DNA of 34,383 nt from Acidobacteriota bacterium (GCA_021828835.1 JAJZCY010000013.1:1-34383), one strand, 5' to 3'; positions 1 through 24,223 are shown, numbered from the stretch's first letter. The notes: generated by a model not told the origin, from the letters alone. Program-made: numbers and translations.

Positions 1-3000
1 TTGAGGATGTCATGCGACTTCGAGCGCCCTTGGTAGAGGGGCACGCCCATGACGCGGTTGGCGCGGCCGCCCCACCAGCCGACAAACTTGGTTCCGGTCT
101 CCGAAAAGGTGACAGAGAGCGGTGTTCCACCGCCGTAGGTCGAGATGCCTGCGATCTGCCATCCACCAATCACAGCGTTTGCCGCCCCGTTAATGTTATT
201 GAGGAACTGGCGGCCACGTCCAAAGGGCAGGTCATACATGTAATTAAAAACCAGCCAGTGCCGCGCCAGCCCCTGCGTGTTGCCGTAGTCGAGCTCAGGA
301 TACTGCCACTGCTGCGGACCGCCAGAGACCGGAACATCGTCCAATCCGCGGCTATATTGATATTCCGCATCGAACGAGAACCCCTTGCTGTAACGCTTGC
401 GCATGCCCAGTTGCAGCTGATTGAAGTTCTCATTGCCAATGCTGCGCGTAGCGTTGATCGCTCCGAAGGGCTGGAAGGGACGCTGCTTCTGCAAAGGCTC
501 GTTGGGGAGCTGCACGTTGGGCACGTTAATCGGTCCCGAGTTGTAGGGCAGGTGATGGGCTACGTTCCCGACGTAGGTCCCCCGCGCGCTCCACTGGCTT
601 CCGAATTGGTGCTCGACGGTGAGATTCCATTCCTGTGTGGAGGCATTCTTGAAATTCCACTGGAGCATGTCGACGGTGGGATTCGGAGAAATCACGTCCT
701 TGCTGTTGGACCCGGGGAATGGATTGGCAAATGTGATATCCGGCAGGTAGGGCAGCGTCGGCTTGCCGGGCAGATTGCTGACGAAGGTTTCGTTGATCGA
801 GAGCTGCCACGGCGGGTTGAACGCGTCCGCGCGCGAGCCCACAAAGCCGGGTTGGAAGTTATAGTAGATGCCGTAGCCACCCCGGATGACCGTCCGCAGG
901 TCGGCAAAAGGACGGAAGGCGAAGCCCAAACGCGGCGCGAAACTCGTGTAGTCGGGCTGGATGTAGTGAATCGGCAACCCGATGCTCTGCGTCGTCTCAT
1001 AGGGATAAGCGGCGAACAGCGCCGGCGAAGCTCCCTGCGGAAGGGTAGGCGTCGCGCTGTTCTCCGGCAAGACGAGCTTGTCGTTGGTCATGTCGAAGGT
1101 TGTTACCTGCTGCTGCTTGTACTGCCAAGGCTTCTGGTACTCCCAGCGCAGGCCGTAGACGAAGGTGAGCCGCTGCGTGGCCTGAAAGGTATCCTGCGCG
1201 TAAATGCCCCAGTCGCGCGAGTAGATATTCTTCGCGAATGCGCCCACCGGAGCGGTTGTAGCGCTGTTTGCATCGCCCAAGAGGAAATCGGCGAAGGAGT
1301 TCCCCTGCGAGTGCGGTTGTCCGGGCCAACCCAGATTTCCAGTCCATTTTCCGCTGAACGCGAAAGCGCCCGTCGCCTGTCCAACCGACGGGACCCGGGA
1401 ATTAATCTTGTAGCCGGATTCGTCGATGCCAGCTTCGATAGTGTGGCGCCCATGGATGTGCGTGAAGTTCTCCGCAAACTCCACTGTCCAGCGCGGAGTG
1501 TATAATCCGGTGCCGTAGTCGTGGAACATGCCGGTGTAGCCGCTCATCGTCATGGTCGGCAGGCCGCGATACATGGTGGTGGGCATCTGTGGAAACAGGG
1601 TCTGCGGATTCACATCCTGATTCTGACCGCTAAACTTGGTGCCGTAATCACCCCAGGAGACACGGAAATCGTTCAAAGTGTGGGCATCGAAGGTGTGGGT
1701 CTCGGTGCCGCTCAGAGTCATGTCTTTATAGCCGTAACGGCCCTGGCCGTAATCCGCGGGATAATTGGTCGCCGAATTCCAGGGGTCCGCCACCCTGCGC
1801 GCAAACACGCCAAATAGGCGGTCAGAGGAAGAGAGGTTGTAATCCACTCTGGCGTCGAGGGCATCCACGTCCTGGGTCACGGGAACCGCGGTCACGTAGT
1901 TGATGCCGCCCGAGGGCAGGCCGGGGCTACCCTGAATGGACGGAGCGGGCAGATACTTCAACAGGAGCTGCGCCTGCGGCGCGATCATGTTGGTGGGGAT
2001 CTGGTTCTTGGAGAAGGGTTGGCCCGTATAGGGATCGTAGAGCTGGGTCCCGGTCAGTGCCGAGAAGTCGCCGGCCCGCATGGACATGCCCGGGAAGCTG
2101 AGCTGCACGGTGTTCGAATTCTCCTGGCGAAATCCGTTGTAATCGAAGAAGAAGAAGGCCTTGTCGCGCCAGATGGGGCCGCCCAGGTTTCCTCCAAACT
2201 GGTTGAGGTGGGTTGCTGGCCGCGGCTGACCCGCCGCATTGAGCACGAAGCTATTAGCGTTGAGCACGGTGTTCTGCAGGTACTCATAGAGGAGGCCATG
2301 AAAGTTGTTGGTACCGCCTTTGGTGACCAGAGTGACCGCCGAGTGGCCGGTGTACTTGGCGCTCATGCCATTACTCTGCACGTTCAGTTCCTGGATGGAG
2401 CTGGGCGGGGGCAGCACCAGCATACCCACACCCTGGACAGTGACCGCGCCGCTATTGCCAGGATCGTTGACGCCGACGCCGTTGAGCGTGAAGTTGACGC
2501 TGCCCCAGTGGCTTCCGCCTCCGATCTCAGGGTTGGTGGCGTTGCGGAATGACTGGACTCCAGGCGCGAGCCCCACGAAAGCGTCCACGGTCTGCAGCGA
2601 AGTGGGCAGATTGTGGAGCTTCTGGGCGCTGATGGATTCCCCCACCGTCATCGAGTCTGTCGTGATGAGCGGCGCCTGGTCGGTGACGGTGACAGTCTGC
2701 TGCACCGCTCCGACCGCCATGCTCACATCCACACGCTTGGTCGAGGAGGAAGTGACATGCACCGCAGCAACACGATAGGTTTTGAAGCCGGGCCGCTCAA
2801 CCGTGACCGTATAGACACCCGCCAGCAGCCCCGGCACCGAATAGGTGCCGCTCGCCCCGGTCTTTGCCCTCACTACGGCGCCGGTGGCGATGTTCCGCAC
2901 CGTGACGCTGGCGCCCGAAATGGCAGCGCCACTCGAATCAGTTACGCTGCCTACCAGCGAGCTGCTAATGTACTGCCCAAATGCTAGGCTGCAAGTAAGG

Positions 3001-3041
3001 ATCAGCGAAACTGCCAGGGTCAGTCTGAGGATGCTTTTCAT
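1..3041 (-). CDS. TonB-dependent receptor, Oar-like, with N-terminal carboxypeptidase-regulatory-like (Cna-B/CarboxypepD_reg) domain; C-terminus runs off the window
   Basis: Reverse-strand translation from ATG at 3041: MKSILRLTLAVSLILTCSLAFGQYISSSLVGSVTDSSGAAISGASVTVRNIATGAVVRAKTGASGTYSVPGLLAGVYTVTVERPGF..., then plug-like LNGVGVNDPGNSGAVTVQGVGM and beta-barrel segments to the window edge with no stop. Not in the supplied ORF track because it is open at the edge. Confidence 0.93.
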   Translation of the reverse strand, partial: MKSILRLTLAVSLILTCSLAFGQYISSSLVGSVTDSSGAAISGASVTVRNIATGAVVRAKTGASGTYSVPGLLAGVYTVTVERPGFKTYRVAAVHVTSSSTKRVDVSMAVGAVQQTVTVTDQAPLITTDSMTVGESISAQKLHNLPTSLQTVDAFVGLAPGVQSFRNATNPEIGGGSHWGSVNFTLNGVGVNDPGNSGAVTVQGVGMLVLPPPSSIQELNVQSNGMSAKYTGHSAVTLVTKGGTNNFHGLLYEYLQNTVLNANSFVLNAAGQPRPATHLNQFGGNLGGPIWRDKAFFFFDYNGFRQENSNTVQLSFPGMSMRAGDFSALTGTQLYDPYTGQPFSKNQIPTNMIAPQAQLLLKYLPAPSIQGSPGLPSGGINYVTAVPVTQDVDALDARVDYNLSSSDRLFGVFARRVADPWNSATNYPADYGQGRYGYKDMTLSGTETHTFDAHTLNDFRVSWGDYGTKFSGQNQDVNPQTLFPQMPTTMYRGLPTMTMSGYTGMFHDYGTGLYTPRWTVEFAENFTHIHGRHTIEAGIDESGYKINSRVPSVGQATGAFAFSGKWTGNLGWPGQPHSQGNSFADFLLGDANSATTAPVGAFAKNIYSRDWGIYAQDTFQATQRLTFVYGLRWEYQKPWQYKQQQVTTFDMTNDKLVLPENSATPTLPQGASPALFAAYPYETTQSIGLPIHYIQPDYTSFAPRLGFAFRPFADLRTVIRGGYGIYYNFQPGFVGSRADAFNPPWQLSINETFVSNLPGKPTLPYLPDITFANPFPGSNSKDVISPNPTVDMLQWNFKNASTQEWNLTVEHQFGSQWSARGTYVGNVAHHLPYNSGPINVPNVQLPNEPLQKQRPFQPFGAINATRSIGNENFNQLQLGMRKRYSKGFSFDAEYQYSRGLDDVPVSGGPQQWQYPELDYGNTQGLARHWLVFNYMYDLPFGRGRQFLNNINGAANAVIGGWQIAGISTYGGGTPLSVTFSETGTKFVGWWGGRANRVMGVPLYQGRSKSHDIL

Positions 3042-3079: not shown

Positions 3080-3097
3080 TGTTCTATTAGCAGAACA
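3080..3097. promoter_or_regulatory. Perfect inverted repeat TGTTCT-ATTAGC-AGAACA upstream of the TonB-dependent receptor (operator candidate, site A)
   Basis: Sequence tgttctattagcagaaca, 39 bp upstream of the receptor ATG; shares GTTC-N8-GAAC with sites at 8923 and 16643. Confidence 0.6.
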
Positions 3098-3125
3098 TAT
3101 TGACAGCATTCTGTACGGTGCCAAC

Positions 3126-3155
3126 CTTATAATACTTTTGGGAGCTGATGGTCAA
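3126..3155 (-). promoter_or_regulatory. Putative sigma70 promoter of the TonB-dependent receptor gene
   Basis: Reverse strand TTGACC (3150-3155), 18-bp spacer, TATAAG (3126-3131). Confidence 0.4.
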
Positions 3156-3170
3156 GGGAAAATCAGCAGC

Positions 3171-4217
3171 CTATTGCGCTTGGCTCTCGCTCAGCAGTTC
3201 CTCAGCCGGCATTTCGCCCATCTCCATACCTTCCGCCGTGCCGCGACAGCCGGCCCAGAGCGTGGTTAGAACGCCGCTCAGAATCAGCGTCGAACCCGCA
3301 TAGTCGCGCTGCGAGGCGGTGCGATGAAACAAGGCTGCATTCAGCACGAATCCGAAGATCACCGAACTGGTCATCGCGCTGGAGACGACGACGCTGCTCA
3401 AGTGCTTGAGCGAATGGGTCAACAGTTGCTGGTAAACCGCGGTGAGCCCGCCGATCGCCACAAGGATTCCCCAGTGGTGAACGGAAAGCGGCTTACCATT
3501 CGCAACTGCCCATACCAGCGACAACAGCAGGGAGGTGTTGAAGAAATAGAAGAGGACGGTGTAGCTGCTGTCGGTTCGCCGCAGCCACGCGACCAGGACG
3601 GTCGCCGAAGCCGCGGCGACGGCGGAACCCAGGGCCAAGAGGCTGCCTACACCGATGCTGGCGTGGGCGTGGAAACCGGAGACCACAACAATGCCGGCGA
3701 ATCCAACCGCCAGCCCCACGAATGCTCCGGGGGCAGGGCGCCGGCGCAGAAACAGCAGCAGCAGCAGCGGCACGAACAGTATGTAACTGGAGTTGAGGAC
3801 CATTGCGTTCTGTAGCGGAATGCGCTCCAGGGCCATGGTGTACATGAGGAACATGACGAAGCCAATGGCTCCTCGCAGCACATGCCACCAGACGCGCGGC
3901 GTGCGGATGGGAGGTCGCTGGTGTGCGAAGTAGAGCGGTCCCAAGGCCAGCACCGCAAAGAGATAACGCACCACGAACACGATGGAGGGGTCTTCCACCG
4001 CGACGGCCTTCTTCATGAGGGCGATAATCCACGCGTACAGCATGGCCGCGAAGAGCACGAGGCCCAGATCGCGGATCCGCTTCGCGAGACGTGCACGCGG
4101 CAGCAGCGGAGCTGTAGCAAGCTGGTCAGCAGATTGCCCCAGTTCGGCAACCTCTCCTTCATTGCCGCAATTTCTCATGAGCCGGCCCGGTTCCATCCGT
4201 CCGTTTCCGCAATTCAA
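3171..4217 (-). CDS. EamA/DMT-superfamily transporter
   Basis: About ten hydrophobic segments; two EamA-like halves (YAWIIALMKKAVAVEDPSIVFVVRYLFAVLALGPLY...; LLLLLFLRRRPAPGAFVGLAVGFAGIVVVSG...). True start may be the internal ATG near 4178. Confidence 0.8.
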   Translation of the reverse strand: MNCGNGRMEPGRLMRNCGNEGEVAELGQSADQLATAPLLPRARLAKRIRDLGLVLFAAMLYAWIIALMKKAVAVEDPSIVFVVRYLFAVLALGPLYFAHQRPPIRTPRVWWHVLRGAIGFVMFLMYTMALERIPLQNAMVLNSSYILFVPLLLLLFLRRRPAPGAFVGLAVGFAGIVVVSGFHAHASIGVGSLLALGSAVAAASATVLVAWLRRTDSSYTVLFYFFNTSLLLSLVWAVANGKPLSVHHWGILVAIGGLTAVYQQLLTHSLKHLSSVVVSSAMTSSVIFGFVLNAALFHRTASQRDYAGSTLILSGVLTTLWAGCRGTAEGMEMGEMPAEELLSESQAQ

Positions 4218-4290
4218 TCGGGCGTACTCGCTATTCCGTATCGGGCACTTCCGGTGTGAGTCCGATGCCGAAGCCGGGCTCCGAGGAGCG

Positions 4291-5106
4291 CTATCCTACC
4301 GGAGCACCTGCGCGGTATCCCAACTGCACAGACATGTTCAGTGCATATTTACGGACGAGTTCCCCGAGCCGGGGAATGTCCTTCCCGCGGATCTGCAGTT
4401 TGCTCGCCCCCAGATTGACTGCGGCCACGACTCGCTTCGATCCGTTGAAGATTGGCGCCGCCACGGAGCGCACGTCTGTCTCGTTTTCCTCGCTGCACCA
4501 CGTGTATCCCTGCGCACGCAACTTGGCCAGATGCTCCTTCAGCAGGCGGGGATTGGTGATCGTCCGCTGCGTCAGCTTGGGAAGCGGATACTGAGCAAGG
4601 ATCCTGTCTAATTCCGGCTCCGGAAGGAAGGCCAGCAACGCCTTACCGATGGAAGTCGAGTGCAGAGGCATGCGCTTGCCGATCCAGGTCGTGAGCCGCA
4701 CCGCATCCAGGACTTCCACCTTGTCGATGTAGACCGCATAGGCGCCATCCCGGATGGCGACGTGTCCGGTGATCCCGGCTTCTTTGGTCAGCGCCTCCAG
4801 CAGCGGGTGTACTTCTGCGCGGACATCCAGCTTGTCCATGAGCGTAGCCGTCAGGCTGAAGAGGCGGGGGCTCAGGGAATAGCGGTCCTGATCATCCTTA
4901 TCGACATAACCGCGCGACTTCAGGGTCTGCAAGATCGCGTAGGCCGAGCTCTTAGGGATATCGAAAAGGCGGCTGATGTCGCTGATGCTCAGGGAGCGGT
5001 CCTCGATCAGCCTTTCGATGATGTCAAGAGTGCGGTGGATCGCCGGTACCGAATAGGCGTTTTCGCTCTGCCGGGTTTTCAGGGTGCTGGTTCCGTTGTT
5101 TCTCAT
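4291..5106 (-). CDS. IclR-family transcriptional regulator (regulator 1)
   Basis: N-terminal wHTH AIHRTLDIIERLIEDRSLSISDISRLFDIPKSSAYAILQTLKSRGYVDKD and C-terminal effector domain (HSTSIGKALLAFLPEPELDRIL; AAPIFNGSKRVVAAVNLGAS). Confidence 0.93.
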   Translation of the reverse strand: MRNNGTSTLKTRQSENAYSVPAIHRTLDIIERLIEDRSLSISDISRLFDIPKSSAYAILQTLKSRGYVDKDDQDRYSLSPRLFSLTATLMDKLDVRAEVHPLLEALTKEAGITGHVAIRDGAYAVYIDKVEVLDAVRLTTWIGKRMPLHSTSIGKALLAFLPEPELDRILAQYPLPKLTQRTITNPRLLKEHLAKLRAQGYTWCSEENETDVRSVAAPIFNGSKRVVAAVNLGASKLQIRGKDIPRLGELVRKYALNMSVQLGYRAGAPVG

Positions 5107-5152
5107 GTCGTTGGTGCCTCAGGTGCGGTAGTGGATATCTTCCGTATCGTAG

Positions 5153-6025
5153 CTAAGCCACCACGCTGTTTTCCAGCACCCCTATCTCTGCGATCTCCAC
5201 TTCCATGTGGTCACCGGCCTTGAGAAAGACCTGGGGCTTGCGGTGGAAGCCTATGCCCGCGGGGGTGCCGGTGCTGATGACATCTCCCGGCCGGAGCACC
5301 AGTGTCTGCGCCAGCGTCGCGATCAGCTTCTCCGGAGCAAAGATCAGGTTCGAGGTATTCGATTTCTGCAGCGTCTCTCCGTTCAGGCTCAATGAGATCT
5401 GCAGCGCTCCGGCGTCCTTTATTGCGTCTGCCGTGACCATCCAGGGTCCCATGGGGCCGAAGCCTTCGCAGTTCTTAGAGCGGAACCACTGTTTGTCACG
5501 GACCTGGAAATCGCGGGCCGTCACATCGTTCATGATGGTGTAGCCGGCAATGCACTGTTTTGCTTGCGCCTCATCTACCTGGAAAGCCCGCCGCCCAATG
5601 ACCACTGCGAATTCCGCTTCATAGTCGACCTGCGACGAGATGGCGGGAAGCGGAATGGCCGAGCGATGGGGCACGATCACCGCCGCCAGCTTGGAGAAGA
5701 AGATCGGCGACCCCGGGGCCGGCAGGTTGTTTTCCGCCGCATGGTCCACGTAATTCAATCCCACGCAGAAAACGCGCGCATCCGCCTCCACCAAGGGGGC
5801 GAGCTTCGCATCGGCCAACGGCACGGCATGGGCCGGGTCCGCAGTCAGTTGGTTCGCGAGTCGTCTGGCCTCGGCCATGGCGGCCTCACCAGCCTGCAGC
5901 AAAGCGCCCAGGGAGCTAAACTCCGCTCGACCTCCGGCCGCTCGGGTGAGGTTGTGGAGTCGCTCGCCTTCGACAACGCCCAAAGCTTTGGCTTCCTGTG
6001 CATCGAAAAAATTCAGCAGCTTCAT
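5153..6025 (-). CDS. Fumarylacetoacetate hydrolase (FAH) family protein
   Basis: FCVGLNYVDHAAE...EAEFAVVIGRRAFQVDEAQAKQCIAGYTIMNDVTARDFQ...GPWMVTADAI...VISTGTPAGIGFHRKPQVFLKAGD, characteristic FAH-family motifs. Confidence 0.93.
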   Translation of the reverse strand: MKLLNFFDAQEAKALGVVEGERLHNLTRAAGGRAEFSSLGALLQAGEAAMAEARRLANQLTADPAHAVPLADAKLAPLVEADARVFCVGLNYVDHAAENNLPAPGSPIFFSKLAAVIVPHRSAIPLPAISSQVDYEAEFAVVIGRRAFQVDEAQAKQCIAGYTIMNDVTARDFQVRDKQWFRSKNCEGFGPMGPWMVTADAIKDAGALQISLSLNGETLQKSNTSNLIFAPEKLIATLAQTLVLRPGDVISTGTPAGIGFHRKPQVFLKAGDHMEVEIAEIGVLENSVVA

Positions 6026-6031
6026 AGTGCT

Positions 6032-6793
6032 TTATCCCCTTATCAGCTCCAGAAAATTGGTTCTCAAAATCTGCTCCTTGCTGGCGTCGGCAATATCCGC
6101 GGTGAGCACTTGTGCAAGCGTCATCGAGGCCTCGAGGAACGGCATGTCCGACCCGAAGAGGATCCGCGCGGCGCCAAGACGGTCCACGCACTTTTCCAGA
6201 ATCAGGCGGTGATGGTGGGAGCCGGCCAGGTCGAGATAAAGATTCGGCGCGGCCTCCGCCGCCTCCATGGCCTGCATGTAGCCGCGCCAAGTGACGCCGG
6301 CGTGGCCCAGTAGAATGCGCGCCCGGGGATGCTCCTTGGCAATGCATGGAAAGAGCAGCGGACCGCAATTTGGATCGGAGTCCCAGGTGTGGACCAGCAC
6401 CACGGCCTCATGCTGGTCGGCATACTCCCAGACCGGCTTGTAGTTCGCTCCGTGCACGGGATACTTGTGCAAGCCGGGATGGAGCTTAATCAGCGGCGGG
6501 CGGTGAAATGCTGACCATCGCTCCAGTTCGGCCACCGCTTGTCCCGGGGGATTGGGATTGACGGTCACGTAGCCCAGGAAGCGGTCTGGATGCCGGCGCA
6601 GCACCTCTTCCACCTCCGGGTTGCCGCGCGGGCAATCGTTGTAGCAGGCCAGCGTAGACGTAACCGCGAGCTTTTCGATGTTCAGCGCATCCATCACCGC
6701 CAGCATGGCTTCGCAGTCGGTCTTGTAGGCTGGAAAATCCGGATGCACACCGATGTGTCCGTGACAGTCCATCACGGGGATTGGAGATCTCAT
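6032..6793 (-). CDS. Amidohydrolase family (TIM-barrel metal-dependent hydrolase), metal ligands apparently intact
   Basis: MRSPIPVMDCHGHIGVHPDF...LIKLHPGLHKYP...VVLVHTWD...ILLGHAGVTWRG...ILFGSDMPFLEAS. ATG at 6793 overlaps the upstream gene stop (ATGA). The ORF-track extension to 7213 is an upstream overlap, not supported. Confidence 0.88.
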   Translation of the reverse strand: MRSPIPVMDCHGHIGVHPDFPAYKTDCEAMLAVMDALNIEKLAVTSTLACYNDCPRGNPEVEEVLRRHPDRFLGYVTVNPNPPGQAVAELERWSAFHRPPLIKLHPGLHKYPVHGANYKPVWEYADQHEAVVLVHTWDSDPNCGPLLFPCIAKEHPRARILLGHAGVTWRGYMQAMEAAEAAPNLYLDLAGSHHHRLILEKCVDRLGAARILFGSDMPFLEASMTLAQVLTADIADASKEQILRTNFLELIRG

Positions 6794-7620
6794 GCCTGCC
6801 TCCCGCTGCGCGTGACCACCTCGGCCAGCAGTCGCCGCAGGTTGCCCCCTGCGATGGCCAGTCTGTTCGGGTCGGAGATGGCCGCGCTCGCCAACACCCC
6901 CAGCGCCGAGGCCGGGGTGAAGAGCGGCAGCCGAGTGCCGAAGAGAAGCGCGTCGGCCCCGCGCTTCTGGACGTGGTGCTCCAGTTGCCGGTGTGCCAGA
7001 TAGGTGGCGGTGTCGAAATGCAGCGAGGGAAAGCGGTCGAGCAGTGGGAACAGGTAGCGGTCTGCGCGGTAGCCGATATCCAGGAGCACCAGGGGAAGCC
7101 GCGGAAAATTTTGCAGCAAGGTTTCGAGTTCGGTCCACCCGATGTCGGCCAGCGCAATCAGAGTCACCACCGCATGGTCCTGCAGAAACTCCAGCACCGC
7201 GCCCGCACACCAACTGCGCAGCGAGAAGTTATGCTGGGTGGTCCCGGGAGTGATGCGCACCGCGCGCGGCTGCCGCGCCTCCAGCGCCTCCACGAAACTG
7301 CGGTCGGGCAGCGCCGCCCATGCCGGTGTGAAGCGCGGATCGTTGTCCGCGGCAAGAGCCAGATTCCCGATCTCCGCGTCGTACTCCTCGCCCCGCCAAT
7401 GCGAAACCACTGCCGAACGGATGAAGAATCGGTCCATTTCGCTCAACAACCCCGCGCGGTCCAGGGCAAGATGGCCGTGCACCCCCGACGATCCGACGCG
7501 TGCGTTCGCGTCGAACAGATCCCAGGCCGCGGCTTCACTAAACTGCTCTGCTGCGCTATACCCCGGCACATGCCTCCTTGATTCCCATACAAAGTTTTTC
7601 CTCTCGGAGAAATCCTTCAT
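6790..7620 (-). CDS. Amidohydrolase-fold paralogue lacking the usual metal ligands
   Basis: LFDANARVGSS... aligns by eye with MDCHGHIG of the downstream gene; later segments VTLIALAD, LVLLDIG and LLFGTRLPLF correspond to LVHTWD, LLGHAG and LFGSDMPFL. Confidence 0.75.
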   Translation of the reverse strand: MKDFSERKNFVWESRRHVPGYSAAEQFSEAAAWDLFDANARVGSSGVHGHLALDRAGLLSEMDRFFIRSAVVSHWRGEEYDAEIGNLALAADNDPRFTPAWAALPDRSFVEALEARQPRAVRITPGTTQHNFSLRSWCAGAVLEFLQDHAVVTLIALADIGWTELETLLQNFPRLPLVLLDIGYRADRYLFPLLDRFPSLHFDTATYLAHRQLEHHVQKRGADALLFGTRLPLFTPASALGVLASAAISDPNRLAIAGGNLRRLLAEVVTRSGRQA

Positions 7621-8846
7621 AGCACGCGTGCGGCGCCGCGCGGCGTCAGCTTCTGCACCTTGCGCAACGCCTCCAGAATGTCATCGACGTCGCGACGGCT
7701 GCCCAGAAGTGCATTGTGGTTGAGCCACACGCCTTCCCGACAGACCCGCTCTGCCACCGGCAACTGCAGGCGCGGATAGTCCTGGGCCGGATACCAGCCT
7801 CTTCGCGACAGTTCGTCCTGCTCGGCGACGAAGAGCGGGTTGCGATAGAGCGGGTGCGGATAGGTCGGCTTAAAGGGAATTCCTTCGGCCTGCATAGCCT
7901 CCAGGAATGCCTCCCGCGGCAATCCACCGAAAGCTTCGGGGGCGTACCAGAAGGTGAGGAGATAGTATGGCTGCCGCTCGATGCGCCCATCATCCTCCGG
8001 GAGCAGCAATCCCGAAATTTCCCTGAGCCCAGCCTTGAGATGCGCATAATTGGCCGCACGAAGCTCGGTCTGCTCCGGCATCCTGCGCAACTGCACGTTC
8101 AGCACCGCTGCCTGGAAGGCGGTGATGCGGTAGTTGCTCCCCAGCGTGAAGTGATCGAACCATCCCCCTTGCTGCTTGCGTCCCTGATTGCAGTAGCTCC
8201 AGCACCGGTCTGCGATGGTCGCGGAGTTCGTCGCGATCATGCCTCCCTCGCCTGCGGTGATGAGCTTGAAGGACTGAAAGCTGAAGGTGGCCACATCGCC
8301 CCAGCCGCCTACCGGCGTTCCCCGCCAGCACGCTCCGTGCGCATGCGCGGCATCTTCGACGATGCGCAACTCGTGCCGCCGGGCCAACTGCTGAAAGGCG
8401 TCCATCTCGGCCGGCCGCCCGCCAAAGTGCACCACCACGATGGCCCGGGTTCGCGGGGTGATAGCCGCCTCTGCCGCAGCCGGAGACAGGTTGAAGGTGT
8501 GCGGATCGATGTCCGCGAAGACCGGAGTCGCCCCGCAGAGCAGAATCGCGCTGGCCGATGCCACGAAGGAATAGGGTGTCACGATGACTTCATCGCCGGG
8601 CCCCAGCTGCAGCGCCCGGAGAGCTACTTCCAGGGCCACCGTTCCATTGGCGCACGAAACTCCATGCGCAAGTCGCTGGTACCGGGCAAAGCCTTCCTCC
8701 AGTTCGCGCACCGCAGGGTGGTACCCCCCCCAGGTCCGGCTGTGCAGCGCTTCGAGCAGCGCCTTCTCTTCCTCCGGCCCGTATTGCGGCCACTGCGGAA
8801 AGGGCGACGTCCGAACCGGAGTTCCACCGTGCAGCGCCAGCTCCAT
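7617..8846 (-). CDS. DegT/DnrJ/EryC1/StrS-family PLP-dependent aminotransferase
   Basis: MELALHGGTPVRTSPFPQWPQYGPEEEKALLEALHS...VTPYSFVASASAILLCGATPVFADID...EDAAHAHGACWRG...FSFQSFKLITAGEGGMIAT. Start set to ATG 8846; the ORF-track extension to 9026 crosses a promoter. Stop overlaps the next ATG (ATGA, 7617-7620). Confidence 0.92.
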   Translation of the reverse strand: MELALHGGTPVRTSPFPQWPQYGPEEEKALLEALHSRTWGGYHPAVRELEEGFARYQRLAHGVSCANGTVALEVALRALQLGPGDEVIVTPYSFVASASAILLCGATPVFADIDPHTFNLSPAAAEAAITPRTRAIVVVHFGGRPAEMDAFQQLARRHELRIVEDAAHAHGACWRGTPVGGWGDVATFSFQSFKLITAGEGGMIATNSATIADRCWSYCNQGRKQQGGWFDHFTLGSNYRITAFQAAVLNVQLRRMPEQTELRAANYAHLKAGLREISGLLLPEDDGRIERQPYYLLTFWYAPEAFGGLPREAFLEAMQAEGIPFKPTYPHPLYRNPLFVAEQDELSRRGWYPAQDYPRLQLPVAERVCREGVWLNHNALLGSRRDVDDILEALRKVQKLTPRGAARVL

Positions 8847-8922
8847 TTGCTCTTCCTCCCCGGCCCGAGAATCCCTGCGGGCGCGACGACCGGTTTCCCG
8901 GCGGGCTCGTTGTCGGCCAATC

Positions 8923-8938
8923 GTTCCATATACCGAAC
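8923..8938. promoter_or_regulatory. Inverted repeat GTTC-CATATACC-GAAC (operator candidate, site B)
   Basis: Sequence gttccatataccgaac between the DegT gene and the divergent symporter gene. Confidence 0.6.
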
Positions 8939-8949
8939 AGCCGTACAAC

Positions 8950-8978
8950 ATACTAACCGTCGCGTGGGCGACTGTCAA
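8950..8978 (-). promoter_or_regulatory. Putative sigma70 promoter of the DegT-amidohydrolase-FAH operon
   Basis: Reverse strand TTGACA (8973-8978), 17-bp spacer, TAGTAT (8950-8955). Confidence 0.6.
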
Positions 8979-9055
8979 CCAGCTTCGCCCCCGGCCCTTT
9001 GCGCTTGACATCAGGGCTGGGATCATTAACCATCCCCATACGATTATCTGATCGA

Positions 9056-10852
9056 ATGATTCTCTTATCGAACACGTTTCCGTTGGGTAGGGGAGGGGAG
9101 GGTGTCATTCCGCAGTTTCCGCTTACGGTCTCTGACCTGGCAGTTATCATCGGCTATCTCCTGCTGGTACTGGGAATCGGCCTCTATTTCCGGGGCCGCA
9201 TGCGTTCCGCGGAAGATTATTTCGCCGGGGGGCATCGCATTCCCTGGTGGCTCGCCGGCATCTCGCACTATATTTCCAGCGCCAGCGCGCTGACCTTTGT
9301 GGCGTACTCGCAACTGGGCTACACCTCCGGCCTGGTCTCGATCGCGGTGGCGTGGACCGCGGTTCCGGGCTGCATCCTGGGCGGTCTCTTCTTTGCTCAC
9401 CGCTGGCGTCAGGCGCGCGTAAGCACGCCGGTGGAATTCCTGGAGCGGCGCTTCGGCTTTTTCGTGCGCCAACTGATGGTATGGGCCGGCATCCCGATGA
9501 AAGTTGCCGAGGATGGCCTGAAGCTTTTCGCTACCAGTCTATTTCTGGCGGTGGGACTGCATATTCCGGTGAGTTGGGCCGTGCTGGCCTGCGGCGCGAT
9601 CGCCATGGTCTACACATTCCTTGGCGGGCTGTGGGCCTTGGCGGTAACCGACTACGTGCAGTTCCTCATGAAGGCACTGGCGCTGCTCCTGCTGGTGCCG
9701 CTTGCCATCTGGCGTGCGGGCGGCCTGGTGCACGCCGCTGGGGCGCTACCCCATGGATTTCTCCACGTCACCGACGCTGCTCATAGCTGGACCTACATTG
9801 CCGGATTCGTGGTGATGCTGACCATCACCCTGAATGGCTCCTGGTCGCTGGCGCAAAAGTTCTACTCGGTTGAAGACTCGCACCAAGCCAGAAAAGCAGC
9901 GTTCCTGTCGGCGGCCCTCTACCTGGTTGCCACGCCGATGATGATCCTGCCGGCGATCCTGGGACGGTTGTTCCTGCCTAACCTGATCGCGCAGCACCAC
10001 ACGGCCGACGTTTATGTATTCCTAATGATCTCGCTGCTACCCGCCGGGATGGTAGGTATTATCGTGGCGGCCCTGCTTTCGGCCACCATGGCCACGGTGA
10101 GCGCCGATTTCAGCGTCATCGCGGGCGTGCTAACGCGCGACGTGTACCAGCGTCTGTTTCGTCCCGACGCTTCCGCTGCCCATCTACTACGCACGGGGCG
10201 GCTGATCACTCTGCTCGTGGGGAGCGCCTCGGTAGGGATTGGCCTCTATCTTTCCCGAGGCGGAGATCAGCCGATCCTGCACCTGATGGTAATTATTGCC
10301 AGCGCGTTCCTGGCTCCTTCCTTCCTCCCTCTGCTCGGGGCGCTGGCCTCGCGCCGCCTTACCGGGCGCGGTGTCATTCTCGGTTTCTTTCTGGGACTTT
10401 CTACCGGACTGGGTCTGCTAGCGGCTCGCGCATGGCTGCTGCCGCACGGCTACTGGCCCTGGCTGCGCACGAATTTTGACGGCGTCTCGATCCTCATCAA
10501 CACGGGCATGACGATGCTTGGCATGTGGCTCGGCTCGCTTGCCTCCGTTTCTTCGGAGGCAAGCTCGCGCAGCTACGATGCGATTTTTGGCACCCCTGAA
10601 CCCAACCCGGCGCCAGCCAGCGTTGCGGGTGAGCACGCCGGGGTTCAGACCGTGATTGCTTTCGCCACGCTGACCGTGGCAGCCCTGCTGGGATTGGCAG
10701 GGCTGCTTGCACCTACGGCCTCAGCGCGCGCCGCCGACCTGAGCATCGCGTTCCTGATCAGCACGCTGGGAGGACACCGACTGGCTTGCACGCGACGCCG
10801 CGTGCAAGCCGCCGCCAGCCAGGAGTCGCCCCACAGCGAGGTGAAATCCTGA
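9056..10852 (+). CDS. Sodium:solute symporter (SSS) family transporter
   Basis: MILLSNTFPLG...LTVSDLAVIIGYLLLVLGIGLYFRGRMRSAEDYFAGGHRIPWWLAGISHYISSASALTFVAYSQLGYTSG..., typical SSS N-terminus with many TM segments. ATG at 9056 preferred to the upstream TTG at 8999. Confidence 0.9.
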   Translation: MILLSNTFPLGRGGEGVIPQFPLTVSDLAVIIGYLLLVLGIGLYFRGRMRSAEDYFAGGHRIPWWLAGISHYISSASALTFVAYSQLGYTSGLVSIAVAWTAVPGCILGGLFFAHRWRQARVSTPVEFLERRFGFFVRQLMVWAGIPMKVAEDGLKLFATSLFLAVGLHIPVSWAVLACGAIAMVYTFLGGLWALAVTDYVQFLMKALALLLLVPLAIWRAGGLVHAAGALPHGFLHVTDAAHSWTYIAGFVVMLTITLNGSWSLAQKFYSVEDSHQARKAAFLSAALYLVATPMMILPAILGRLFLPNLIAQHHTADVYVFLMISLLPAGMVGIIVAALLSATMATVSADFSVIAGVLTRDVYQRLFRPDASAAHLLRTGRLITLLVGSASVGIGLYLSRGGDQPILHLMVIIASAFLAPSFLPLLGALASRRLTGRGVILGFFLGLSTGLGLLAARAWLLPHGYWPWLRTNFDGVSILINTGMTMLGMWLGSLASVSSEASSRSYDAIFGTPEPNPAPASVAGEHAGVQTVIAFATLTVAALLGLAGLLAPTASARAADLSIAFLISTLGGHRLACTRRRVQAAASQESPHSEVKS

Positions 10853-10864
10853 GCACGTTTGAGC

Positions 10865-11929
10865 CTACCGCCCTGTATATTGAATGTTCGGCGAAAGATC
10901 TGCCGGAGGCGGGGTCACGGCGACGTTGCTGCCTCCATTTTCCAGTGATTGATGGATCGCTTCCAGCGCCGCAGTGACCTGGCGACCATCGAAACCCGTT
11001 ACACGAGGCGTGGTGTCCTTCACGATGGCAAAGACGAAGTCTTCCAGACAGGAGGGAAACGCGCCACGCAGGCGGCCGAAGATGTCGGCGCTGAGGAATC
11101 CCTTGGGGTAGCTGAAGGACTGCTCGGTGCTGATTTCAAATGACTCCCGCTTGCGATCGAGGTTCACGTGCCCCGCTGACCCGATCACCTGAATGAAGGA
11201 GTCAACCGGCGTAGGGAAGGTATTGGGATAAATCCAACCGGACTCGAAGGTGACGAACGCACCCGACGCAAATCGCACCTGCGCCTGAATGATGTCGTAG
11301 GTGGGAATGCCGCGCGCCACCAACACTTCCTTGCGGCCCCACGCGCGCGCTTCCACCGGCTCGCTGCTGAGAAACCAGCGCACCAGGTCGATGTCGTGCG
11401 CCGAGAGCAACCAGGCTGGCGTTGTCTCTCCGGCCCAGCGGATATTGCGCGTCGACACCACGATGGTGTCGTTCTTGCGTGCGTAGCCGGCCAACGGCGT
11501 GCCGATCTGCCCGGACGCGATTGCTGCATGGGCCTGGTTGTATGCTGATAGCCACCGGTGGTTGAAGGCCACCTGAATCTTGCGATTTTTTTGCCTGGCG
11601 AGCCGCAGCAGAGCGTCTGCCTCCACCACTTTCGTGGTGAACGGCTTCTCGACGAACACATGACATCCGGCCTCGAGAGCTGCGCGGGCGAAGTCGTAGT
11701 GCCAATTATCCGGGGTGGCCACGACCACCGCATCCAGCTTTTCCTTCTCGAGCATCTGCCGGGAGTCGGTGTACCCCTGCACGCCGAACTCCGCAGTAGC
11801 TTCGCTAACCTGCTCTTGCCGGCGCGCGCAGACCGCCGCCACCTTCGTCAGGTGATTCTCTCCGAACACGCGAATGCACATGCGCGCCATCTTGCCCAGT
11901 CCAATAATGCCGATTCGTATCTGCTCCAT
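10865..11929 (-). CDS. Gfo/Idh/MocA-family oxidoreductase
   Basis: MEQIRIGIIGLGKMARMCIRVFGENHLTKVAAVCARR...VVATPDNWHYDFARAALEAGCHVFVEKPFT; RBS-like GGAAAGGCGG precedes ATG 11929. Confidence 0.92.
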   Translation of the reverse strand: MEQIRIGIIGLGKMARMCIRVFGENHLTKVAAVCARRQEQVSEATAEFGVQGYTDSRQMLEKEKLDAVVVATPDNWHYDFARAALEAGCHVFVEKPFTTKVVEADALLRLARQKNRKIQVAFNHRWLSAYNQAHAAIASGQIGTPLAGYARKNDTIVVSTRNIRWAGETTPAWLLSAHDIDLVRWFLSSEPVEARAWGRKEVLVARGIPTYDIIQAQVRFASGAFVTFESGWIYPNTFPTPVDSFIQVIGSAGHVNLDRKRESFEISTEQSFSYPKGFLSADIFGRLRGAFPSCLEDFVFAIVKDTTPRVTGFDGRQVTAALEAIHQSLENGGSNVAVTPPPADLSPNIQYTGR

Positions 11930-12049
11930 ATCCGCCTTTCCCATCGGCTGTTCCGCGCCTGCGGTCCGGCCGATTTCTGTGTGTCCCGTTCGAGCATATC
12001 CCCTCGAATATAGTCACTCCGCTGTTGCTGCTCTGTCTTATGCCCTCCA

Positions 12050-15000
12050 TCAGTGGATGGCAAGCAAGCGAATGCGGTGCTGTCCCGGCGCTAACTCCGG
12101 AAGGACCAGCCGATTTCCGCTGTACCGTGCGGCAGCCGGTCTGCCGTCCACTTGAATCTCGCACGACACTGCCGCCGCATACAGGTCGATCACCGTCGCC
12201 GCGGAGTTGGCAATGAACAGTCTCACTCCAGCCGTCTCGCTTTCCCACTCCACCGTCACTGGCCTGGTGGCATACAGCAATGGTTGGCCCGCACGCGTCA
12301 CGGAGGTGGCGCCCGCCGCCAGCCAGCCCGCAGGCGTGCTACCGCCGTGCCACGCGAGCACGGAGCCGTCGGTCGCCAATCCTGCGGTCTGTAGCAGTCC
12401 AGCCGCGGTACGGAACACGACTCCTGCCGCGCCTCCGCCCGAGATTTGCAGCCCCTCTCCGGATGGTTCGTGCCATGCTTGCAACGCTCCGCGTACCGAA
12501 CTGTCTCCGGATGCGATCCGCAGGCCGACGAGGAAAGCTGTCTTCCTGGCCGGTTCGGAGTCAAGCTTCAGCTCCTGCGGTACCGGGATAGGCGCACCAT
12601 CGAGGCGGCTGAACTGCCTCACCGCAATGGGCGCCTCGACCACTTTCCAGGCGGTGTTGGCGCCTGCCGCTTGCAGGGTAACCCCCACCTGGCGGTTACC
12701 TGCTTTGGCAGGCAGCGCGATCGATGCAGTTCCGCTGCGGACGGCTACGTTCGCACCGGGAACCGGATGCAGCAGCCAGGAGAAGCGATGCGGCTCGGGC
12801 GCGCTGAGATCGTCACGAATCACTAGGATTCCGGGCTTGAGAAAGAGATACTGCCGTTGGAAACGCGCCAGCCTGCCTTCATAGGCCGGCGCCAGATCCG
12901 CTGCGAGATAGTCGAAGGAAGCTCCCAGCAACGTACTCGTGAAGTGCGGGTACTCGAAGCCGGGCCAGAACCTTGAAGGGATTGCGCCCTGACTAAACGG
13001 ATCACTGTCGAGAAGCACCGTATTGTGCCCGGCTGCCTGCGAGAAGTAATCCGCATAATGAGGATCGGTATAGTAGCTTGCGTAGCCCGCCTCGCTCACC
13101 AGTGTGCGGCCGAACGCAGCCACCTGAAACGTGCCTTCGTCCGCATGCTGGTGATTGAACCACGGACCTACGCGCAGCGAGATGACGGTCGAATCTGCAC
13201 CCCAGCCGCTGCGAAGCACGGCGCTTCCCCGCCCCGGAAAGACTCGCGACGGCGGCGGCTTACGCAGGGGGAACGCAGAATCTGTGCAGCACACCAGGTC
13301 CAGCGGGCCCTGCAATTCCTCAAGATGATGCCCGTTCTGGTCGGGGGCCGCTCCCTTGAGGAGGTCCAGATCGGTGCCGGCATCATAGAATGCGCGGAAC
13401 GCCGGGTCGCCGCTGTGCTGCGCGCCCCACGCAAATCCCGACAGCGCCTTCAGCCTTCCATCGAAGTCGCCAGTGTCCAGTTGGCGTCCTGGGCGAATGG
13501 TCGCGTAGTCGGGCCACCAGAATGCCTGCATCGCAGCATGGGCGCCCCGGGGCCGGATGCCCAGATCGGCCAATGCGCTCATGCCCCAGGAGATACCCTG
13601 CATCGCGAAGTTCTCGTATCCTGCCGGCTCGGCTTCGCTCCCACCGCCGGGAAACAGCCCGCGTAGCAACTGCTCAAAGGCGAACTCCAGGTCGGCGAGA
13701 GCGGGCCCGTCCTGCTCTTGCCAATCCGGCGACTCTGCGGCCAGAGCGACCTCCGCCGCCAAAGCACCGCCCACCGAATTCGCCATCCAGTTGCTTGCCG
13801 CAATCGGATTGCGATTGTAGAGGAAATATCCCTTCACCACCGGCTCGATGGCTTGCTGGCGAAGGGCCATGGCCACAAGCTCCCGCTCCGGCGCGGTAAG
13901 CTGGTCCGCAATGAGGTCGTAGCCGAAGGCGACCCTCTGCGCAACGCAGCCAACCTCGTAGTAGGTGTTCAATCCGTGCTGGCGAAAGCGCGGCGGGCTC
14001 CAGGTGCGCCACTGTGCCATGGCCAGCAGGGCTCGCCGGGCGGCCTTCAGCGACTGGAGATCACCGTTCAGGCGAAAATCGAGCGCATTGTAGGAGATCG
14101 CGTTGGCATAATCCTCCACCAGCGTCATGTACGGCAGGATCTGCCCCGGGAAGGCCGGCTCAATACCCGGTCCGGACGGCATCAGCGCAATGTTGTCACC
14201 CGCCGCCGAGCTGTAATTAATCGTCGAAGCCAGCGATGCGGCGCGCCGATGAATCTCCTGGCGCAGGCCAGCGTTGCCTGGGGCCCCGCGCAACTGCGCC
14301 ATGCGTTCGGGCGTAAGCAGGAGATGACCATGGGCTGGGATCCCACCCAGCACCAGAAATCGAAAGCTGGCGGCGGCATCACCCTGCACGACCTCGGCGC
14401 GCCACAAGCCCGGCACGGCAGCGCGCGCGACGGGAATCGCTATCTGCGTCCCCTCCACCGTGGCGGGTGGGCCCGCGATTTTTTGGCCGCGGCCGTCGAA
14501 GAGTTCTATGTGAGCCGCGGGGCGCGCGCCAGCCAGCGTAATCCGCAATGTGCCGCCCACGCGAACCACCTCGCGGGCAACGAGCGATCCGTCCACCGCA
14601 GCATCCATCTGCGGACTCAACAGCGCCACTTGCCGAGGCTGCTTCGCCGTCAGCTCGAACTGGCGGAGAACCCATCGGGAACTCCAACCTGGAATGGGCT
14701 TCTCGATTTGGCCCAGGAGCACCACGGCGACAACCCTGGTAGGCTCCCGCAGCGAAAAGGCCGCCGCGTGCAGGATGATATGGTGTCCCCCGCTGCTGCC
14801 CGGAAGCGCCGCCTGGTAATGGTGCCCGTCCGCTGCGACCAGGATCACGCGGCTGCCCCGCAACGCGCCGCTCACCTGTAGCTGGTACTCCATCCGGATG
14901 GTGCTGGATGCATCCGCGAGGAAGCTGAGCGGCCGGATCATGCCGAAGTATGCCTGTGGCTCGCCGTGTGCCACGAACTGGTGGACCAGGAACGCCTGTT

Positions 15001-15211
15001 GGCCATGCCTACCTATATATATGGATGGGTCATACCCGACGTCCTGCGAGAGGGGGTAACTCATCCACCCCGTATAGCCCCCACTCCAGTCGGCCCGATA
15101 GCTCCACGGAACGGGCTCAGCCTGCCGGGCCGTCTGTGCCGGTACGCCGCACGTCACCATGACTGCCCCGGAAGCTGCGGCTAACAGCCGCCTTGCCGCT
15201 TTTGCGAACAT
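12050..15211 (-). CDS. Large secreted heparinase II/III-like protein (polysaccharide-lyase-like)
   Basis: Signal-like N-terminus MFAKAARRLLAAASGAVMVTCGVPAQ; alpha/alpha-toroid-like middle; heparinase-type motif WFNHQHADEGTFQVAAFGRTLVSEAGYASYYTD...AAGHNTVLLD. Confidence 0.8.
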   Translation of the reverse strand: MFAKAARRLLAAASGAVMVTCGVPAQTARQAEPVPWSYRADWSGGYTGWMSYPLSQDVGYDPSIYIGRHGQQAFLVHQFVAHGEPQAYFGMIRPLSFLADASSTIRMEYQLQVSGALRGSRVILVAADGHHYQAALPGSSGGHHIILHAAAFSLREPTRVVAVVLLGQIEKPIPGWSSRWVLRQFELTAKQPRQVALLSPQMDAAVDGSLVAREVVRVGGTLRITLAGARPAAHIELFDGRGQKIAGPPATVEGTQIAIPVARAAVPGLWRAEVVQGDAAASFRFLVLGGIPAHGHLLLTPERMAQLRGAPGNAGLRQEIHRRAASLASTINYSSAAGDNIALMPSGPGIEPAFPGQILPYMTLVEDYANAISYNALDFRLNGDLQSLKAARRALLAMAQWRTWSPPRFRQHGLNTYYEVGCVAQRVAFGYDLIADQLTAPERELVAMALRQQAIEPVVKGYFLYNRNPIAASNWMANSVGGALAAEVALAAESPDWQEQDGPALADLEFAFEQLLRGLFPGGGSEAEPAGYENFAMQGISWGMSALADLGIRPRGAHAAMQAFWWPDYATIRPGRQLDTGDFDGRLKALSGFAWGAQHSGDPAFRAFYDAGTDLDLLKGAAPDQNGHHLEELQGPLDLVCCTDSAFPLRKPPPSRVFPGRGSAVLRSGWGADSTVISLRVGPWFNHQHADEGTFQVAAFGRTLVSEAGYASYYTDPHYADYFSQAAGHNTVLLDSDPFSQGAIPSRFWPGFEYPHFTSTLLGASFDYLAADLAPAYEGRLARFQRQYLFLKPGILVIRDDLSAPEPHRFSWLLHPVPGANVAVRSGTASIALPAKAGNRQVGVTLQAAGANTAWKVVEAPIAVRQFSRLDGAPIPVPQELKLDSEPARKTAFLVGLRIASGDSSVRGALQAWHEPSGEGLQISGGGAAGVVFRTAAGLLQTAGLATDGSVLAWHGGSTPAGWLAAGATSVTRAGQPLLYATRPVTVEWESETAGVRLFIANSAATVIDLYAAAVSCEIQVDGRPAAARYSGNRLVLPELAPGQHRIRLLAIH

Positions 15212-15305
15212 TCAGGCTTCTCTGGCCCCTTCCCGTGGTGGTATCAGCAGCTTGCGCACAGCCGGGGCGGAAGGCTCCCAGCTGCCGGTTGTGCCACCGC
15301 GCCGG

Positions 15306-16574
15306 TCAGCGGCGGAAGCGGTAAACATGCACATCGTGAGGGGCAAACCAATCCGTAAACCTGCCGTCGCTGACGGTCACATGCCGGGGCGACTCGAACA
15401 GCACATCCCCCTCCTGGACCCCGGTGGGAAGGCCGGAAAAGGTCACTTGGACCGTCGATCCCTCGCGCCGTGACGCCAAGATATAGATATAGCTCCCCGA
15501 CTCGCGGACTGTATACTCCATCGCGCTATCGCCATTGGAGGTGATCTTCAGGCTGGAGGCGGGTGCAATGAGAGCCGGGTAGAGCGGCCTGTCCGGGCGC
15601 AGCTGGTCGAGCACCGGCCGCAGCACGTGGTGGTAGAAATGCCAGTTCCATCCATATGCCGCGTCGCGCGTGTTCAGACAGGCCGCAACATTCCCCCCAA
15701 AATAGACCAATCCGCGCGCGCCATCGATGATGGCCTGATAAGTCATGTAGCGTTCCTGCGCGAAGGTGGGGAAGCGCAGCGTTTTCCCCGGTAGGGCCAC
15801 TCCGCTCCAGCAGACCTGCAGCACCATCATCGTAGGCTTGCGGTAGTCGGTGGAGGCCCGAATCTGCTTGGCGTAATCCCCAACCACGCTGATGTCCTTG
15901 TTGGCGATTCCGGAATGCGTCCCGGGCGGATAGCTGATCGGGTAGATGTCCACGGCCCCGATATCGAAATAGCGGGCGTATGGCTTCCACTCTGCCACCG
16001 TGCCGCGAGGGGCTTGCGTGATCCAGATGGGATGGTGGGTATCGAGCTGGTGAATCGTCTCGTAGTAGGCCCGCAGGTTCTCCACTGGAACCTTGCCCCA
16101 CTGCGGCTCATCGTCGCCCTTCCAGAAAAGAACCGCAGGATTGTCCCGGTACTTTTGCACCACCCGGCGCAGTTCCGCGATCTTCGCCGTGTCTCGGGGG
16201 GGAATATGCTGCAAGTCGTCAATGGAGATGACCAGATGCATTCCCTGCGCGTCCGCCTCACGGAGCAGGGCGTCGAGCTGCGCTTCAGCCGCCGGTCCCC
16301 ATTTGTGCTTCGGGCAATACCAGAGCTGGAAGGTGTAGCCTTCCCGGCGCAGATAGGCCATGGCGTTATTCCTATCCGGGGTGGTCATGCCAGTAGGGGG
16401 ACCGGCGGTGAAGCCGATGGGGAAGGTTGGGGCCGAATCGATGAGGAAGGGACCATCGGGCTGCGTCTTGACGTCCGTCACGTGATCCGGCAGCGGTTTC
16501 GGTCCAGCAACGGCCAGACTGAGCCCTGCCCCCACCAGACACAACAGCAAAGTGACTCCACGATACCGGCGCAT
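15306..16574 (-). CDS. Secreted TIM-barrel glycoside-hydrolase-like protein
   Basis: MRRYRGVTLLLCLVGAGLSLAVAG signal peptide; FPIGFTAGPPTGMTTPDRNNAMAYLRREGYTFQLWY...DNPAVLFWKGDDEPQW...DIGAVDIYPISYPP. Start ATG 16574 preferred to 16610. Confidence 0.7.
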   Translation of the reverse strand: MRRYRGVTLLLCLVGAGLSLAVAGPKPLPDHVTDVKTQPDGPFLIDSAPTFPIGFTAGPPTGMTTPDRNNAMAYLRREGYTFQLWYCPKHKWGPAAEAQLDALLREADAQGMHLVISIDDLQHIPPRDTAKIAELRRVVQKYRDNPAVLFWKGDDEPQWGKVPVENLRAYYETIHQLDTHHPIWITQAPRGTVAEWKPYARYFDIGAVDIYPISYPPGTHSGIANKDISVVGDYAKQIRASTDYRKPTMMVLQVCWSGVALPGKTLRFPTFAQERYMTYQAIIDGARGLVYFGGNVAACLNTRDAAYGWNWHFYHHVLRPVLDQLRPDRPLYPALIAPASSLKITSNGDSAMEYTVRESGSYIYILASRREGSTVQVTFSGLPTGVQEGDVLFESPRHVTVSDGRFTDWFAPHDVHVYRFRR

Positions 16575-16642
16575 GTTTCTGCACTTCTCCCTTGTTGGAG
16601 CCGCCCCCACGGCGCACGGCCGGAAGAAGCTCCGAGCGATGT

Positions 16643-16658
16643 GTTCCGCTTATAGAAC
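16643..16658. promoter_or_regulatory. Inverted repeat GTTC-CGCTTATA-GAAC (operator candidate, site C)
   Basis: Sequence gttccgcttatagaac, upstream of the TIM-barrel/heparinase-like/Gfo genes. Confidence 0.6.
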
Positions 16659-16669
16659 GGCGATTCAGA

Positions 16670-16699
16670 ATACTAACCAGCCGCCCGTACGCCTGTCAA
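16670..16699 (-). promoter_or_regulatory. Putative sigma70 promoter upstream of the TIM-barrel glycosidase-like gene
   Basis: Reverse strand TTGACA (16694-16699), 18-bp spacer, TAGTAT (16670-16675). Confidence 0.6.
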
Positions 16700-22062: not shown

Positions 22063-22113
22063 GCCGCGGACGAGCGCTGTCAGCGCTCCGCAGGAAGCAA
22101 CAGGAGAACCGTG

Positions 22114-23205
22114 ATGCACATCGAGGAGCTTGCCACGCCGGCGGTACTGGTGGATCTGGACGTCGCCACGCGGAATCTGGATCGCATGGCCGGTTTTTGC
22201 CAGAAGCATGGCCTCGGCCTTCGACCGCATACCAAGACACACAAGAGCCTGGAGTTTGCACGCCGCCAGCTCAGCCGCGGGTCGCGTGGGCTCACCGTGG
22301 CCAAAGTGGGCGAGGCCGAGGTGATAGTGGCGGCCACTCCCGGCGAGATTCTCGTGGCGCATCCCGTGTTTGGAGCCGCGCAGCTTGAGCGGCTGGCACG
22401 CCTCGCCGCGGAGACCGAGATTCTCATCGCCATCGACAGCGACGCTGCCGCCGAGGCGATCTCCTGCGCCGCAGCCCGCCTAGGGGTGAGTTTTGGAATT
22501 CTTGTGGAGTTCGACTCCGGATTCCGCCGCTGCGGCCTTGCAGCCGGGGCTGCATGCGTTGCCCTGGCCCGCGGGATTGAACGTCTCCCGGGGCTACGCC
22601 TGCGCGGGCTGATGACCTATTTCGGAAATATCTGGGGATCAGAAGAGGAGCGCGCTTCGCAGATCCGCTGCACCGCGCGCGAGGTGCAGCGTGCGGTGGA
22701 GGCATTTGAGGCCGAGCGACTGCCGCTCGAAATCGTCTCCGGCGGATCGACACCTGCCGCGGTTTTGTCGCACCTCATCCCCGGACTCACAGAAATCCGT
22801 CCCGGCACCTACATCTTTAACGACATGAATACTGTGTATCAGGGCGCCTGCAGCCTCGACGACTGCGCGGTGCGCGTCCTCACCACCGTGGTCTCCACTG
22901 CTATTTCAGGCCAGGCAATCATCGATGCCGGCTCGAAGACCCTCTCTTCCGATCCGCTCTCCTCCGGGCCGAAGAGCGGCTATGGCTTTATTGTCGGACA
23001 GCCCTCGGTCACGCTCACTCGCCTGAACGAGGAACACGGCTACGTGGATATCACACGCGCGGGACCGCTCCGCATCGGGGAAAAGCTCAGCGTGATTCCG
23101 AATCACGTCTGCGCATGTGTCAATATGCACGACGAAGTATTTATCGTGGGCGGCGAGCAGGTGATCGATACATGGAAGGTCGACGCCCGCGGCAAAGTCC
23201 GCTGA
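22114..23205 (+). CDS. D-threonine aldolase / DSD1-like fold III PLP protein (alanine-racemase N-terminal domain)
   Basis: MHIEELATPAVLVDLDVATRNLDRMAGFCQKHGLGLRPHTKTHKSLEFARRQ...; C-terminal metal-site-like PNHVCACVNMHDEVFIV. Alternative GTG start at 22111. Confidence 0.88.
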   Translation: MHIEELATPAVLVDLDVATRNLDRMAGFCQKHGLGLRPHTKTHKSLEFARRQLSRGSRGLTVAKVGEAEVIVAATPGEILVAHPVFGAAQLERLARLAAETEILIAIDSDAAAEAISCAAARLGVSFGILVEFDSGFRRCGLAAGAACVALARGIERLPGLRLRGLMTYFGNIWGSEEERASQIRCTAREVQRAVEAFEAERLPLEIVSGGSTPAAVLSHLIPGLTEIRPGTYIFNDMNTVYQGACSLDDCAVRVLTTVVSTAISGQAIIDAGSKTLSSDPLSSGPKSGYGFIVGQPSVTLTRLNEEHGYVDITRAGPLRIGEKLSVIPNHVCACVNMHDEVFIVGGEQVIDTWKVDARGKVR

Positions 23206-23234
23206 TCCGGGCCGCAACCTGTTGCCGCCAACCT

Positions 23235-24209: not shown

Positions 24210-24223
24210 CTTCCCTCCGCTTC

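Follow-up and report, generated by a model that had tools for sequence, protein, structure and literature searches.

A gene cluster in an Acidobacteriota bacterium raises the question of whether three dispersed TGTTC-N8-GAACR palindromes are operators of one local regulator and, if so, which protein binds them. The cluster lies in a 34,383-nt stretch of DNA (GCA_021828835.1, JAJZCY010000013.1:1-34383), analysed here in full and called the window. An earlier note on this DNA had proposed that the palindromes join uptake, depolymerisation and intracellular catabolism in a regulon controlled by the first of two IclR-family proteins encoded there (IclR1). From sequence comparisons, we consider it highly likely that the three palindromes are operators of IclR1, and that IclR1 is a repressor encoded in an operon under its own control.

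Three palindromes precede three transcription units

A pattern scan of the whole window found exact TGTTCN8GAACR matches at three sites only, with the shared arms and 8-bp spacer that the note had described, and each lies upstream of a different minus-strand unit whose gene assignments held (Table 1). Dinucleotide shuffles of the window contained 0.02 matches on average, and the observed count was never reached (0/100 shuffles). The inner spacers are alike too, with all three sites reading YGTTC-Y-A-T-W-W-R-C-N-GAACA in one orientation. The distance to the gene start downstream is 39 bp for site 1 (receptor, start at 3041), about 76 bp for site 2 (DegT, likely start at 8846) and about 68 bp for site 3 (glycosidase-like gene GHx, likely start at 16574). 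A mechanically called 469-aa ORF (7617-9026) covers site 2 through an N-terminal extension only, and the likely DegT start is preceded by a purine-rich stretch. Weaker candidate sites in the window (30832, 3536, 3836 and 9057) scored below these three, were mostly intragenic and found no support.

Table 1. Coordinates of operators, promoters and genes in the window
Feature	Position	Strand	Basis or remarks
TonB-type receptor, cut by window edge	3..3041	-	Pfam OMP_b-brl_4, CarboxypepD_reg
Operator 1 (putative)	3080..3097	-	TGTTCTGCTAATAGAACA on - strand; exact match; before TonB-type receptor; orthologous sites in G556, G131
Putative promoter TTGACC-N17-TTATAA before receptor	3127..3155	-	Sequence; TTGACC and -10 region partly conserved in G556
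EamA-family transporter, end of DegT operon	3171..4217	-	Pfam
IclR1, proposed repressor	4291..5106	-	Pfam HTH_IclR + IclR_C; PDB relatives; tree
FAH-family hydrolase	5153..6025	-	Nearest NCBIfam model 2,4-didehydro-3-deoxy-L-rhamnonate hydrolase, below cut-off
Amidohydrolase 2	6032..6790	-	Pfam Amidohydro_2
Amidohydrolase-like protein 1 (AH1)	6790..7620	-	No Pfam match
DegT-family aminotransferase, first operon gene	7617..8846	-	Pfam
Operator 2 (putative)	8922..8939	-	TGTTCGGTATATGGAACG on - strand; exact match; promoter of DegT-AH1-AH2-FAH-IclR1-EamA operon; orthologous sites in G556, G131
Putative promoter TTGACA-N17-TAGTAT before operator 2	8950..8978	-	Sequence; TTGACA and -10 box in same arrangement in G556, G131
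Gfo/Idh/MocA oxidoreductase	10865..11944	-	Pfam
Heparinase II/III-like polysaccharide lyase	12050..15211	-	Pfam; PDB heparinase II and PL35 relatives
GHx, glycosidase-like	15306..16574	-	No Pfam match
Operator 3 (putative)	16642..16659	-	CGTTCTATAAGCGGAACA on - strand; exact match; promoter of GHx-heparinase-Gfo unit; orthologous sites in G556, G131
Putative promoter TTGACA-N18-TAGTAT before operator 3	16670..16699	-	Sequence; promoter alignment

Specificity of the motif in the genome

The bare motif TGTTCN8GAACR occurs at about 27 distinct places in the 3.92-Mb genome (~0.24 per 34 kb) and is therefore not specific by itself; the places fetched from the genome nearly all overlap long ORFs, and we rejected the bare motif as a genome-wide marker. 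A check of genome frequency thus fails for the bare motif but succeeds for an extended one, since GTTCYAYNNRYNGAAC, with no mismatch, occurs in the 3.9-Mb genome at the three window sites and at no other place. The pattern GTTCYRYWWRYRGAAC, with at most one mismatch, matches seven places, three of which are the window sites. Across 79 other genomes of the genus, the number of GTTCYAYNNRYNGAAC matches ranged from zero to about eight per genome, and most of these matches have centres that contain G+C. Because the refined patterns were picked after the sites had been seen (GTTCYAYNNRYNGAAC also after the sites of genome G131, described below), their uniqueness is descriptive, and the independent test is the footprint in other genomes.

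Corresponding promoters in two other genera carry the sites

Searches with IclR1 in the 60 nearest genomes and the GTDB contig collection returned weak matches only (39% at best) and no orthologous cluster. Related clusters were found through a class-wide search with the first amidohydrolase, and G556 through a family-wide search with IclR1. G556, from another genus, encodes an IclR1 ortholog (75% identical) in a syntenic cluster. Each of the three corresponding promoters there has GTTCN8GAAC, about 40 bp ahead of the start of the matched gene; the remaining GTTCN8GAAC matches in 60 kb fall inside receptor and GH20 genes. Genome-wide, the extended pattern matches G556 exactly at just two places, both of them among these three promoter sites of the cluster, and its orthologous third site, TGTTCATTAGGCAGAACA, does not follow the inner consensus. 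In G131, from a third genus (IclR1 55% identical), sites are kept for all three units, in a shared divergent DegT/GHx promoter and before the receptor. An additional site lies close upstream of the IclR1 gene, and a weaker one before the heparinase gene. The phylogenetic footprint suggested for this locus was therefore recovered, with the motif at the same three units in G556 and G131.

A weight matrix built from G556 and G131 alone ranked the window's three sites 1, 2 and 3. The lowest of them scored 17.1 and the best of 30 random sequences 17.0; these are level, so for site 2 the matrix by itself counts as modest evidence.

A further motif site in G131 stands at the start of an operon (L089:2920-7621) for an iron-sulphur protein, a fumarate-reductase-like flavoprotein and class I fumarase subunits, and the G131 regulon appears to include this operon.

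The motif accompanies the IclR1 clade

IclR1 has the domains of the IclR family (HTH_IclR, PF09339, 1e-12, N-terminal; IclR_C, PF01614, 2e-48, C-terminal). Its PDB relatives are IclR proteins, with alignment to the effector domain of E. coli IclR, and its best NCBIfam matches are KdgR, BhcR and PcaR/PcaU, at scores well below the model cut-offs. To associate regulator and motif we used 22 loci that were chosen by IclR1 similarity, not by motif, and that are related to one another; in 17 of these 22, GTTCN8GAAC lies within 400 bp upstream of the regulator. The upstream regions (8.8 kb) held 33 sites, as against 11 in the 365 kb elsewhere; given the kinship of the loci, the formal p-value makes this contrast look stronger than it is. 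IclR1 itself is encoded inside the operon that follows site 2, and its G131 ortholog has a site of its own, as expected of an autoregulated gene. Assignment of the regulon to IclR1 is thus supported by the footprint, by the co-occurrence of motif and IclR1 clade and by the lack of a G131 ortholog for the second regulator, IclR2. We conclude that the local regulon is real and conserved and that it very probably belongs to IclR1.

One genome, G097, encodes an IclR1 ortholog (59%) that stands alone amid transposase genes (L133:8493-9338) with no exact operator nearby, and the DegT cluster of that genome has a regulator of the other IclR clade.

More distant IclR1 relatives mostly sit beside isocitrate lyase (aceA), with TGTTCA-N6-TGAACA directly upstream. 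In 16 of the 17 aceA-type loci used for a half-site comparison, isocitrate lyase is encoded divergently on the upstream side, at most about 2.5 kb from the regulator. The base after TGTTC is A in 58/68 half-sites at these aceA-linked loci, compared with 2/18 in IclR1 clusters, and the base after GTTC is T or C in 14/18 half-sites of the cluster type. Loci outside both clades (L134, L142, L145, L149, L168 and L169) had no motif upstream of the regulator. The aceA-adjacent relatives suggest a glyoxylate-bypass IclR in Acidobacteria that shares the TGTTC...GAACA arms; neither the G131 cluster stretch nor the annotated window genes include an isocitrate lyase. Upstream of aceA-linked iclR (L135-L152, L106 and L170), TGTTCA-N6-TGAACA is usually paired, 73 ± 3 bp apart or about seven helical turns, a spacing that could suit cooperative binding or looping.

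Seven DegT-type clusters (families f5 and f7) mostly carry, by the tree, an IclR of another clade. Their receptor-regulator stretches contain ten GTTC-N9-GAAC palindromes in 3.0 kb versus five in the rest of 114 kb, and no N8 palindromes. Among the seven, L103 has no GTTC-N9-GAAC and L102 no detected regulator. The intergenic stretches of L092, L094, L095, L096, L099 and L102 often hold two GTTC-N9-GAAC about 110 bp apart. Since N9 goes with the other clade, spacing is tied to regulator clade, which counts against IclR2-like binders at the window sites. One further reading, which we hold with about even confidence, is that two IclR clades have taken control of one and the same catabolic cluster in different Acidobacteria, with operators changed accordingly, GTTC-N8-GAAC with T or C after the arm for the IclR1 clade versus GTTC-N9-GAAC for the other, and that the base after TGTTC (A versus T/C) keeps the IclR1 regulon distinct from the IclR regulon linked to aceA in this phylum.

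Operator positions and a model of repression

From the last -10 base of the putative promoter to the start of the operator is 11 bp for operators 2 and 3, so these two overlap or abut the expected transcription start. Operator 1 is further away, about 30 bp downstream from its putative TTGACC/TTATAA promoter. The placement of two sites just downstream of a -10 box suggests repression. Without inducer, the IclR1 dimer would sit on YGTTCYAYWWRYNGAACR at the transcription start of the units behind sites 2 and 3, and on site 1 in the early transcribed region of the receptor gene. In this way it would silence three units at once (outer-membrane receptor, lyase/glycosidase and intracellular catabolism), its own gene among them through site 2. 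Blocking of polymerase, or of its escape, is the mode that would fit these positions, and a pathway intermediate, perhaps a keto acid, may release IclR1. We infer binding, repression rather than activation, and the nature of effector and substrate.

Alternative explanations

That IclR1 binds the sites but activates, or has a mixed role, is an unlikely reading with a precedent in the family, of which PcaU and PobR are activators. Activators typically have their sites ahead of the -35 box, and here the expected start is touched or overlapped by operators 2 and 3, with operator 1 still further downstream. It is still less probable that the operators are real and bound by another protein, either IclR2 (28980-29903) or a regulator encoded elsewhere. 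IclR2 is also an IclR protein, is encoded in the window and accompanies the conserved cluster in G556 (66%). Against it, G131 lacks an IclR2 ortholog (best match 37%) yet keeps the sites and has one closely preceding its IclR1 gene; N9 spacing is found with the regulators more similar to IclR2, and the window has no excess of N9 palindromes. On the missing ortholog and both N9 observations we disfavour IclR2 as the regulator.

Two explanations that dispense with an operator have very little probability left. Three unrelated palindromes could have met by chance in a 34-kb window, given the roughly 27 places of the bare motif, but each of them sits close to a promoter and has counterparts at the corresponding promoters of two other genera, and together with the shuffle expectation of 0.02 the footprint in effect already refutes this. 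Equally improbable are RNA hairpins in 5' leaders: by the putative promoters, all three repeats fall at the start of a transcript or inside it, but a single G131 site serves two divergent genes, the arms are almost constant in sequence instead of changing in ways that preserve pairing, and the motif tracks IclR clades. A LexA/SOS box of the Gram-positive type has its arms in the order GAAC...GTTC; it does not fit here, as the window arms read GTTC...GAAC and the targets are catabolic.

Relation to known IclR operators

The window sites, read as IclR1 operators, resemble described IclR sites in their frame. IclR group 1 has the motif GKTYCRYW3-4RYGRAMC, with an even-length subgroup NGT-12-ACN of the form NGTYCRAW4TYGRACN (Suvorova and Gelfand, 2021; PMC8222616). 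The even-length palindrome and GT-N12-AC frame of this subgroup recur in the window, G556 and G131 sites, along with C and G at the arm ends, an A/T-rich centre and local control of catabolic genes. Its sites lie mostly 20-80 bp before the gene start, a range that takes in all three window sites. It differs in the purine after GTYC (CRA...TYG), where cluster-type sites mostly have T or C and aceA-linked sites have A. Many known operators are tandem, with 18-22 bp from centre to centre, unlike the single window sites and the aceA-linked pairs at about 73 bp (PMC8222616). NpdR of Rhodococcus opacus (GTTCMRYATMRTGAWS; PMC8222616) has the GTTC-N8-GA frame and an RY-AT-like centre and comes near the aceA-linked sites, whereas its targets serve nitrophenol use and it has A/C where the window sites have T/C. 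E. coli IclR, the acetate operon repressor, is placed among A/T-rich motifs (PMC8222616); beyond the effector-domain alignment it differs from IclR1, which is proposed for a carbohydrate cluster rather than aceA and falls far below the NCBIfam IclR cut-off. KdgR, BhcR and PcaR/PcaU are likewise local catabolic regulators, with other target genes.

Acidobacteria are absent from the taxonomic table of the survey (PMC8222616), and the openly licensed literature that we searched held nothing relevant on IclR operators in this phylum. The regulon is familiar in kind and new in its members, for a phylum without such sites in the literature searched. It offers a predicted regulator-operator pair and a small complete regulon spanning uptake, polymer cleavage and catabolism. 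The three operator types (N8-A, N8-T/C and N9), matched to three IclR clades, form a natural set for studying DNA reading and regulator replacement, and annotators could use the motif to decide which genes serve the cluster's substrate.

Other features of the locus

The receptor has a carboxypeptidase-like N-terminal domain, and its relatives are found on Granulicella and Acidisarcina plasmids. GHx had no meaningful PDB sequence match either, and its predicted model was poor (mean pLDDT 50). Amidohydrolase-like protein 1, for all its lack of a Pfam match, is 54-61% conserved in class members, generally with a second amidohydrolase encoded after it. A separate gene group at 22111-29903 encodes a D-serine dehydratase-like protein, a class III aminotransferase, amidohydrolase 3, an amino-acid permease and IclR2; it is conserved with the cluster in G556 and contains no motif copies. 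At the right edge (33792-34382) lies a transposase-like reading frame, IS110-like by eye. Taken with the failure to find an IclR1 ortholog in the searched genomes of the genus, it is a hint of horizontal gain or of repeated losses.
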